Assembly (NCBI GenBank): GCA_027084135.1
Contig: JALWLO010000074.1
Coordinates: forward strand, 1 to 47,230
From: Campylobacterales bacterium
Lineage (GTDB): Bacteria > Campylobacterota > Campylobacteria > Campylobacterales > QNZT01
Direction: 5' to 3'
Length of the DNA: 47,230 nucleotides
Shown here: positions 34,365 through 37,349 of the stretch, one piece after another
Layout: every line of letters begins with the position of its first letter
Numbering within the stretch: position 1 is the stretch's first letter
The notes under the pieces: model-generated
Databases searched by the model: none
Seen by the model: the letters and a program-made list of their open reading frames with translations, nothing else
What the model was told of the DNA's origin: nothing
Translations under genes and position numbers: made by a program

Positions 34365-35558
34365 TTGATTTTTATCAGGATACTTCTTTTGACATTTATA
34401 TCTTTACTTATAGGTTGCGGTGGCGGGGATTCTAAAAATCATCCTCCGATTGCTTTTGATCAAAACTTAAGCGTAAAAGCGGGAAAAAGTATCAAAGTTC
34501 CTTTTAAAGCAGATGATCCTGACGGTGATCAAATCAAATTTATTGTCTATAAGTTACCGCAAAACGGTCGATTTGACGCCGATAACTTAACCTATACTCC
34601 AAACGATACCTTTGCAGGGATAGATGAGATAGCCTTTTATGCAGTCGATGATAAAAACAACAGATCCAACGATGCGAAAATCATCATCCAATCTCTCTAT
34701 GATGCCCCACCCACTTTGACGCTCAATGGAGCAGAAACCATCATTATCGAACTTGGCGATAACTTTGATGATCCTGGAGCAACAGCTATCGACCCCGAAG
34801 ATGGAAACATTAGTGACACCATCTCAACAAGCGGGATAGTCGATACTTCAACTATCGGAACCTATACGATCACTTATAGTGTTACTGATAGCGCCTCTCA
34901 TAGCGTCACCAAAACAAGAGAGGTAAGAGTGGTACTACCTCGTTCATCAAATGATGATCTCATGATCATCAACCCTCATAACAGTAACCTCGTCATCAGC
35001 TATGATGATAATGAGGCACCCTATGATCCAAATACTCTCACCGTAAATATCTATGATAATACCCCTCAAGTTCCGAAAGAACCTAGAATGGTAGATATAG
35101 GAAACGCTAACTATGCACTTGAACTTTTTGGCAACGGCATCGATAATGCTTTTCATATATTAGGCTATGATACGATCAAAAAATATTATTGGAATGAACA
35201 TCCCGAATATCAAACTAGATTTCATATCTCATGGGATGCGAAGTTTAGTAGTGATTTTGTGATCTATATCGTACTAAAGTTTCAAACAGCTGACGGACAA
35301 ACAATCTGGAACGATCTAGTCTATACACCGACTCCAAACGGCTATGAAGGAGTTACAAACGGATTTTTACATATCTCTTTAGGAATCGGTGCCAAGGATG
35401 GAGAGTGGCACCATTATGAAAGAGATATCCTAGATGATCTACATAGATTTTATCCGGGAGCAACCATACCCTATAATGACAATAAAAAGGGCTATGTAAA
35501 CGGATTTGCGATAAGGGGAAGCGGTCTCATTACAAATCTAAAGCTATCTCTGAACTGA
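34365..35558 (+). CDS. Lipoprotein with Ig/cadherin-like repeats and C-terminal beta-sandwich
   Basis: The gene starts with TTG, preceded by GGGAG about eight bases upstream. The 397-aa product has a lipoprotein signal (LLTFISLLIGCGGGDS). Next is a cadherin/VCBS-like domain (ADDPDGDQIKFIVYKLPQNG, TYTPNDTFAGIDEIAFYAVDD). Then comes a DUF5011/HYR-like domain (LGDNFDDPGATAIDPEDGN, IGTYTITYSVTDSASHSVTKTREV). The last ~200 residues form a beta-rich domain with YWNEHPEYQTRFHISWDAKF and EWHHYERDI, which looks like a carbohydrate-binding jelly roll. Probably surface-exposed. Two TA-rich structured repeats flank the next gene. Confidence 0.75.
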   Translation: MIFIRILLLTFISLLIGCGGGDSKNHPPIAFDQNLSVKAGKSIKVPFKADDPDGDQIKFIVYKLPQNGRFDADNLTYTPNDTFAGIDEIAFYAVDDKNNRSNDAKIIIQSLYDAPPTLTLNGAETIIIELGDNFDDPGATAIDPEDGNISDTISTSGIVDTSTIGTYTITYSVTDSASHSVTKTREVRVVLPRSSNDDLMIINPHNSNLVISYDDNEAPYDPNTLTVNIYDNTPQVPKEPRMVDIGNANYALELFGNGIDNAFHILGYDTIKKYYWNEHPEYQTRFHISWDAKFSSDFVIYIVLKFQTADGQTIWNDLVYTPTPNGYEGVTNGFLHISLGIGAKDGEWHHYERDILDDLHRFYPGATIPYNDNKKGYVNGFAIRGSGLITNLKLSLN

Positions 35559-35563
35559 ACCCT

Positions 35564-35745
35564 CTGAAAAACTATAAATTGAAGAAAAGCTTTATAATTT
35601 TAGCAAAAATTTTATGTTAGCCGCAGGCTAAAAAGAGCACTAAACCACGAAGGGGCGCTTGCGTTTGCTCTTTTTAATAAAATTTTTTTGCGTTCGCGAA
35701 GCGGAAAAATTATAACTTGCTTGAGTGAAATTAATAGTTTTTCAG
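35564..35745. repeat. Structured palindromic repeat, copy A
   Basis: Nested inverted arms: CTGAAAAACTAT/ATAGTTTTTCAG (35564-35575 with 35734-35745); TTATAATTTT/AAAATTATAA (35592-35601 with 35706-35715); GCAAAAATTTTAT with ATAAAATTTTTTTGC (35603-35615 with 35677-35691); AAAAGAGCA/TGCTCTTTT. A loop hairpin TTAGCC-GCA-GGCTAA sits at 35617-35631, and the central segment reads CCACGAAGGGGCGCTTGCG. Copy B at 37107 has the same layout with different arm sequences that still pair. No ORF. It fills most of the 293-nt gap before the CAP gene. Confidence 0.75.
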
Positions 35746-35851
35746 AACACTAAACTAGCAAAAATTAAAGAATCAATATAGTTTAAAATATTTAATACAA
35801 CTTGATAAAAATCAAGCTATTATCATCCTAAATAGATCGAAAGGATGATAG

Positions 35852-36838
35852 ATGAGATATATTTCTTTAGTACTAGCTACCTTGCTGCTCATAGGATGTG
35901 GCGGCGGGAGTAGCAAAATCGACAAGGCAAAAGAGAAAGTCCAAAGTCTCATAGATGAAAATATCGGTTCGCAATCAAATGATATGAGTGGGCAAACAGA
36001 AACTACAAAAGCTACACAACCATCTACTACGGATGATCAAAATAGCACTACGCCAACCGATGAACAAAACGGTAGTAATATGCGACAAAGTGACACTACC
36101 AAGAGCGATACGGACAACACCCATAGTGACAACGACACCTCCTCGCAAAGTAGTACCGATGAACCCGCTTCAGGTAACAATAATAACCATACTGCCGACA
36201 CCAATAAAACAGATGATCAAAAGAGTAGTACTAACGATAATCAAAGTAGTGAAAATAACAGTTCATCAGAGAGTAGTACTAATAATAGCATAGACAATCA
36301 ACACAGCGATACAAATACTACCATAAAAAAGATCGTTGATAGACACAACTACTATAGAAACCTTCTCTATCACGATAGCAATCTCACTTGGGACGATGAG
36401 ATCGCAAAAAGTGCCCAAGAGTGGGCTAACTATCTCGCAGAACACTACACCGTTCAAGCAAGAGATAGAGGATACTCTCCACACGATAATCAAAACTTCG
36501 ACTATGGTGAAAATATCGCTTGGGGTATCCCTTCGATGGATTTTGTCACCGATGAGCCGATAGAGGATATCGATACTCCGAGTGACACGATTCCAGACGG
36601 AGCAGTAGATGCATGGGCAAGTGAAAAGGCTTACTATGATTATGAGACAAATAGTCAAAAAGCCGGTTATGAAGATAAAGTCATCGGACACTATACGCAA
36701 CTTGTCTGGAAAGAGAGTACTAAGGTCGGGTGTGCAAAGGCAAAGTCACAAACGGATCTAGGTGGCGAATGGGTTGTATGCAGATACTATAAACCGGGAA
36801 ATATGACGATAAACGGAGTAAAACAGAAGCCCTATTGA
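35852..36838 (+). CDS. CAP-domain (SCP/PR-1-like) lipoprotein
   Basis: The 328-aa protein has a lipoprotein signal (LVLATLLLIGCGGGSS). A ~130-residue Ser/Thr/Asn/Asp/Gln-rich low-complexity linker follows. The C-terminal CAP domain is about residues 165-325: RHNYYRNLLYHDSNLTWDDEIAKSAQEWANYLA, HDNQNFDYGENIAW, VIGHYTQLVWKESTKVGCAKA and WVVCRYYKPGNM, the classic CAP motifs with conserved His and Glu. Bacterial CAP lipoproteins are surface proteins of mostly unknown activity. RBS AAGGATGATAG. The linker holds two in-frame TAGTACTA motifs. Confidence 0.88.
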   Translation: MRYISLVLATLLLIGCGGGSSKIDKAKEKVQSLIDENIGSQSNDMSGQTETTKATQPSTTDDQNSTTPTDEQNGSNMRQSDTTKSDTDNTHSDNDTSSQSSTDEPASGNNNNHTADTNKTDDQKSSTNDNQSSENNSSSESSTNNSIDNQHSDTNTTIKKIVDRHNYYRNLLYHDSNLTWDDEIAKSAQEWANYLAEHYTVQARDRGYSPHDNQNFDYGENIAWGIPSMDFVTDEPIEDIDTPSDTIPDGAVDAWASEKAYYDYETNSQKAGYEDKVIGHYTQLVWKESTKVGCAKAKSQTDLGGEWVVCRYYKPGNMTINGVKQKPY

Positions 36839-36843
36839 TTTGA

Positions 36844-36919
36844 TGGTGGAGCATAGCGGGCTCGAACCGCTGACCCCGACGCTGCCAGCGTCGTGCTCTC
36901 CCAGCTGAGCTAATGCCCC
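36844..36919 (-). tRNA. tRNA-Ala (GGC anticodon)
   Basis: The minus strand reads GGGGCATTAGCTCAGCTGGG..., anticodon loop CTGGCAG (GGC), T-arm GGTTCGAGCCC, acceptor ATGCTCC, discriminator A and an encoded CCA. 76 nt. It lies 5 nt beyond the stop of the CAP gene on the other strand. Confidence 0.95.
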
Positions 36920-36950
36920 GAAAACGAGAGGATATTATACCACATTTTCC

Positions 36951-37067
36951 TCAGTTTTTCCTCTCTTCCTCTCTTTTTTTTGCCGCTTTTTTACCAAAAT
37001 GAAGTCCTATATAGATAGGCGCTACAATAATAGCGGCTCCGATAAGAACCCAAATGATCGTTGTCAT
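36951..37067 (-). CDS. Small single-span membrane protein, 38 aa, not in ORF track
   Basis: MTTIIWVLIGAAIIVAPIYI leads into a Lys/Arg/Glu-rich tail (GKKAAKKREEERKN). One N-terminal transmembrane helix with the positive tail in the cytoplasm is predicted. GGAGAGG lies 4-5 bases before the ATG. It is too short for the supplied track. It sits between tRNA-Ala and repeat copy B. Function unknown. Confidence 0.65.
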   Translation of the reverse strand: MTTIIWVLIGAAIIVAPIYIGLHFGKKAAKKREEERKN

Positions 37068-37104
37068 ATACCTCTCCTGACATATTTAAATTTAATTGAT
37101 TAGT

Positions 37105-37332
37105 TTGAAAAACTGTTAATTGAACGAAAACTTTATAATTTTGTCCTCGTCACTCCGTTCCTGCGGGATTGTCGCAAGGCTCGGATAAGTTAAAAACTCA
37201 GCGTTAGCCGTAGGCTAAAAAAGTGCACCAACCCCGAAGGGGCACTTTAGTGTTTGCACTTTTTAGCAAAGTTTTTAACTGTTTGCGAAGCAATAAATTA
37301 TAACTCGTTTGAATGAGTATTAACAGTTTTTT
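37105..37332. repeat. Structured palindromic repeat, copy B
   Basis: Nested arms: AAAAACTGTTAAT/ATTAACAGTTTTT (37108-37120 with 37319-37331); TTATAATTT/AAATTATAA (37133-37141 with 37295-37303); GTTAAAAACT/AGTTTTTAAC (37189-37198 with 37270-37279); AAAAAGTGCA/TGCACTTTTT (37218-37227 with 37255-37264). Loop hairpins are TTAGCC-GTA-GGCTAA and CCCC-GAA-GGGG. Compared with copy A, several arms differ yet keep pairing. A 46-nt GC-rich insert (37143-37188) is specific to this copy. Confidence 0.75.
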
Positions 37333-37349
37333 AAACCCAAATTTTGTCT

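Follow-up and report, generated by a model that had tools for sequence, protein, structure and literature searches.

A MITE family is usually paired with a single insertion sequence (IS). RUP elements of Streptococcus pneumoniae are MITEs of IS630-Spn1 (PMC2229807), and RUP, Correia, ERIC and bcr1 are all known examples of MITEs with stable folds (PMC2229807, PMC3733652). Correia/NEMIS, ERIC and bcr1 are mobile stem-loop elements of 100-200 bp located beside genes; for Correia and ERIC elements the RNA structure is reported to affect mRNA, and Correia elements occur in long and short forms (PMC2229807, PMC3733652). Compensatory changes are known in REPINs, which are tied to RAYT (IS200-type) transposases (PMC3116915). 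In addition, insertion sequences show an orientation bias with replication that has been ascribed to contact between the transposase and the sliding clamp (review PMC5371812, citing Gomez et al. 2014).

The two elements described here, A and B, resemble RUP in being short, intergenic and non-coding, with ends that match a complete IS, a target duplication and dispersed copies. Unlike RUP, their IS belongs to the IS5 family, the duplications are 4 bp long, and the interior has a conserved, covarying fold that is common to MITEs of other IS families. They are also mobile stem-loop elements next to genes, as are Correia/NEMIS, ERIC and bcr1; however, their fold is multi-branched and is kept across many families of an order. 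To our knowledge, there is no sequence relation to these three groups. What separates the present elements from REPINs is that they carry terminal repeats, are flanked by target duplications and are partnered by a DDE transposase; a REP/RAYT (REPIN) identity was ruled out by the duplications together with the DDE IS5 partner. No description of the family was found in the open-licence literature. What is new is that one branched covarying fold occurs, across an order, in MITEs whose ends belong to different transposase families. This recurrence makes it possible to test directly if the fold is under selection or the interior is just passive filler, and whether the folds stem from RNA selection or from replication-templated arm repair is testable as well; complete genomes with 8-18 copies offer ready test material in an order that has many uncultured members.

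Both elements lie in the window, the whole 47,230-nucleotide stretch of Campylobacterales DNA that was analyzed. Element A is a 196-bp MITE with IS5-type ends (35557-35752, + strand; left GAACCCTCTGAAAAAC, right TTTTTCAGAACACTA), flanked on the left and right by the 4-bp target duplication AACT (35553-35556 and 35753-35756). Element B, which belongs to the same MITE family, measures 242 bp (37098-37339, + strand) and has outer ends that have decayed (GATTAGTTTGAAAAAC and TTTTTTAAACCCA); it is flanked by AATT (37094-37097 and 37340-37343). A sequence-only reading had proposed that the two copies share a nested palindromic layout; on sequence inspection, all the motifs it named were found in both, and every described part is present. 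Its limits of 35564-35745 and 37107-37332 fell slightly short, as the terminal repeats extend to the outer positions given above. Within the copies, the TTATAATTTT arms (A, 35592-35601; B, 37133-37142) are partnered by AAATTATAA, the TTAGCC-G[CT]A-GGCTAA hairpins occupy 35617-35631 and 37204-37218, and a further arm pair is GAGCA/TGCTC in one copy and GTGCA/TGCAC in the other, around centers that carry CGAAGGGGC in both.

The branched core of A (35592-35715, + strand), which is supported by covariation, comprises helix H2 (35592-35601/35706-35715), helix H3 (35603-35616/35676-35691), hairpin H4 (35617-35631), helix H5 (35630-35639/35666-35675), helix H6 (35645-35655) and hairpin H7 (35693-35704). 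The corresponding core of B (37190-37303, + strand, likewise supported by covariation) contains H3 (37190-37203/37265-37278), H4 (37204-37218), H5 (37218-37227/37255-37264), H6 (37232-37242) and H7 (37282-37293), with the 5' arm of H2 at 37133-37142 and its 3' arm at 37295-37303. An optional 47-nt hairpin domain (GTCCTCG...GGATAAG; 37143-37189, + strand) is found only in B of the A/B pair. Counterparts of this domain (GTCCTCG..CTGCGGGGTTGTCGC..GCTCGGAC) are situated at the equivalent place in L093 and L255, which brings the number of genomes to three overall, and L070 and L071 contain sequence resembling it that is not part of such an element.

The surroundings of A and B carry some features of their own. 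The final T of the left target duplication and the first bases of A, GA, form the TGA stop of an upstream lipoprotein-like ORF (34365-35558), so that the insertion of A fixed the C-terminus of its product; two further copies (L050 and L058) likewise start 2 bases within the end of a gene. A tRNA-Ala(GGC) was called by ARAGORN at 36844-36919 and is absent from the Rfam scan list at the gathering threshold. The idea that A and B form a special pair around the CAP lipoprotein, the tRNA-Ala and a small membrane protein did not survive a whole-genome DNA search, which revealed at least eight loci in the same genome, six of them beyond A and B on contigs C19, C86, C26, C45, C42 and C124; with these further loci, the bracketing is probably coincidental.

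The outer 16 bp, GAACCCTCTGAAAAAC, matches the ends of complete 1.2-kb IS5-family elements in relatives. Less-decayed copies in related metagenome-assembled genomes possess perfect outer ends (GAACCCTCTGAAAAAC...GTTTTTCAGAGGGTTC) and 4-bp flanking repeats such as AATA, TATT and AATT. An end-sequence search of 299 genomes identified GAACCCTCTGAAAAA in G007 and G087 as pairs in inverted orientation, separated by 1218-1241 bp, and GAACCCTCTGAAAAA(C) is common to the MITEs and the 1.2-kb elements of G007, G087 and G211. One of the G007 pairs encloses a 330-aa transposase (Pfam DDE_Tnp_1, 3e-26; NCBIfam transpos_IS5_4, 2e-72), and IS copies of G007 and G211 have 4-bp duplications, the same length as those of the MITEs. 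By BLAST, MITE and IS have only the terminal 15-17 bp in common, the interior being devoid of any shared sequence. Exact 4-bp target duplications flank 14 of 25 copies, against 3.7 expected and a maximum of 9 in 5000 shuffles, and 13 of the 18 copies in the complete genome G093. The assembly of the elements' own genome (G000) contains no complete IS5 copy; IS5 transposase fragments, 74-75% identical, are situated at the ends of its contigs C36 and C88, the former adjoining GAACCCTCTGAATAAC, and this position suggests that the assembly was interrupted by an IS present in multiple copies.

Loci without the element provide additional evidence of mobility. In G002 and G004, the PP-loop gene, the small membrane ORF and the tRNA-Ala appear in the same order, with a short gap at the position of B; these syntenic loci are free of B, but their sequence is too diverged to yield a base-exact empty site. 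Together, the IS5-matching terminal repeats, the duplications of AACT around A and AATT around B, the dispersed copies and the element-free syntenic loci bear out the second half of the proposal that the pair is a structured RNA or a MITE, and on their sequence A and B can be regarded with near certainty as MITEs of an IS5-family insertion sequence. Both elements sit within a few bases of stop codons, a placement that would suit ordinary degraded terminators of different origins. That explanation is extremely improbable, as it is contradicted by the transposon ends and target duplications common to both, by more than 100 related copies in total, and by orthologous loci that lack the elements.

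The family is patchily distributed across the order. With a covariance model derived from 25 copies, matches were obtained in 47 of 399 Campylobacterales genomes, at most eight candidates being scored per genome. Copy numbers reach 18 in G093, 13 in G115 and 12 in G226, and the elements measure 131-327 bp with no transposase ORF inside. A kernel pattern search conceived as phylum-wide drew only genomes of Campylobacterales and found the kernel in 4 of 397.

The interior of these elements is one branched fold of nested helices that is conserved through compensatory changes. For A and B themselves, folding stability exceeds that of 200 dinucleotide shuffles (z of -3.4 and -5.9, respectively). 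When 25 cores were aligned by MAFFT without structure and scored against the structure of one copy, 96.9% of 1188 cells were paired, compared with 42-50% in slid controls, and double-sided compensatory changes affected 26 of 48 pairs, compared with 5-7 when partners were slid by 1-3 columns; no shuffle attained the observed pairing or covariation values. Among 69 matches aligned to the covariance model, a fit that leans toward structure, 45 of 48 pairs were doubly changed, and 594 cells were compensated versus 68-124 in slid controls, with covariation cells counting shared ancestry more than once. The initial impression that the arms differ between copies and still pair is thus substantiated by strong covariation across many copies, and the absence of further copies or of significant covariation, which would have spoken against it, was not observed. 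The best-conserved parts are the A5/T5 tracts flanking helix H5, kept in about 64 of the 69 matches, and the apex kernel TGCRC-YYAACCC-loop-GGGCGCTTGCGTT-YGCA; these tracts, the kernel and the branch order are retained over about ten families.

The arms might also have stayed complementary mainly through hairpin template switching (quasi-palindrome correction), in which replication or repair copies one arm onto its partner; the fold would then be functionless and the element an ordinary MITE. Consistent with such a process, the arms are perfect or near-perfect yet copy-specific, most notably the outermost ones of G226, G257 and G242. Furthermore, minimal copies (L045, L069 and L168) lack the whole core and have short direct repeats (TTTT or TTGAGCGAAA) at their breakpoints, as if the core had been lost by hairpin slippage. 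Template switching alone, however, leaves unexplained why the branches keep one order from family to family and why the A5/T5 tracts and the apex kernel (YAACCC-loop-GGGCGCTTGCGTT) recur with them, and it is judged a serious alternative that nevertheless falls somewhat short of an even chance. It also fails to explain the behavior of the two strands. On the strand designated plus for mismatch and loop counts, G-T mismatches exceed A-C mismatches by 51:17 cells in the MAFFT alignment and by 72:23 cells (25 versus 5 pairs) in the model alignment, the asymmetry being weaker in the former than in the model-fitted one. In the 69-match model alignment, GNA triloops outnumber their complement by 48:5. 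The excess of G-T and of GNA loops on one strand suggests that it is the folding of the plus strand that counts, either as RNA or as single-stranded DNA.

Orientation relative to neighboring genes shows no such preference. Among 40 copies, 15 are co-directional, 12 opposite, 7 convergent and 6 divergent, and a cotranscribed 3'-UTR element was rejected on this lack of bias; with both gene directions about equally represented, a strand-specific 3'-UTR role is unsupported. Orientation follows replication instead, a point that is also in keeping with template switching. The G093 record starts at dnaA (identified by its sequence), and 20 samples across the genome place the turn of its GC skew near 1.05 Mb; of the 16 copies that lie away from the terminus, 15 oppose the leading strand. 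With coordinate 1 assumed as the origin, so do 13 of 14 copies in five further complete or near-complete genomes, and the split by replichore, nearly all against the leading strand, is seen in G093, G117, G066, G079, G081, G055 and G038. The local GC skew of 3-8 kb pieces was discarded as an indicator of replication strand, being dominated by gene strand and hence uninformative. As in replication-oriented insertion sequences, orientation follows the direction of replication, the difference being that the bias here concerns MITEs; since such a bias is already known for insertion sequences, it fits MITE biology and is not in itself new.

The same interior is also found between other ends. Several genomes have it flanked by GGYACTGACTAAATA ends, and 8 of the 15 pairs listed show exact 8-bp duplications; in G032 ends of this type surround a 715-bp element with an ORF resembling an IS1 transposase (NCBIfam 7.7e-8, 32.5 versus a cut-off of 100 bits; Pfam 4e-4), both scores being below the curated cut-offs. 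A third end type, ACTGATRTTACGCACTTT, encloses the interior in G042 and G087; ACTGATRTTACGCACTTT and its inverse carrying the interior were noted at L061-L069, L272, L273 and L283. No parent element of this third end type (ACTGATRTTACGCA) is recognizable in the part of the surroundings examined in G042 and G057. Copies in G226 have no recognizable transposon end at all. Occurring between IS5-type, IS1-like and third-type ends, the interior is not linked to a single transposase, and its sequence contexts mark it as an apparent module that outlives its transposon ends.

A stronger version of this view treats the interior as a structured RNA or single-stranded DNA module in its own right, one that is conserved in about ten Campylobacterales families, has moved among unrelated transposon ends (IS5-type, IS1-type and a third kind) and persists without ends, that is, a functional fold with MITEs as vehicles; this is possible but rather unlikely. 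A related proposal, in which MITEs of several transposon families disseminate a functional structured noncoding RNA as their interior, draws on the strong covariation, the preference for G-U and GNA loops on one strand, and the identity of the fold in IS5-type, IS1-type and end-less contexts. It is weakened by the lack of an Rfam match, the inconsistent orientation to genes and the patchy distribution, and is likewise rather unlikely. In the Rfam search, no element matched any family at the gathering threshold, and at E<=1 a single weak hairpin hit appeared, far below its cut-off; in L278, an HPnc0260-like hit is located beyond the element. An integron attC site was dismissed on inspection, as the kernel contains the RYYYAAC-like CTCAAC/CTTAAC but the GTTRRRY partner is absent. 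The TTATAAT arms were considered as a promoter, and no promoter-like site was found there.

Taken as a whole, the elements are very likely IS5-mobilized MITEs with a conserved fold and a possible insulator role. An IS5-family transposase, to judge from the shared termini, would act in trans on elements of the A/B type by binding their ends, and insertion would occur into AT-rich 4-bp intergenic sites, with the passing replication fork presumably setting the orientation. The fold may then matter on one strand. Its most likely role could be insulation or two-way termination by a compact structure rich in hairpins, which would render the element harmless to its neighbors and let it persist better, a suggestion that derives from the A5-stem-T5 tracts around H5. 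This layout is present in nearly all copies, and a terminator scan (loops <=8) calls neither A nor B. The chances that the fold has a selected role of some kind appear evenly balanced, and a true RNA role is doubtful.

Several variants of the apex and the core have also been observed. In L042, L043, L068, L126 and L308 (four genomes), the short kernel gives way to a longer apex form with about 90 nt extra, of the GTGCGGAGCTAC...GACGCTCCTCCCGTTCGCAC type. The kernel also tops long, near-perfect hairpins with unrelated arms in L298-L300, which belong to genomes of another family. On a metagenome contig, the L086 copy leads, from about position 1737, into a long array of GC-rich hairpins composed of GTTTGCCTTTGCTTAACGC repeats.
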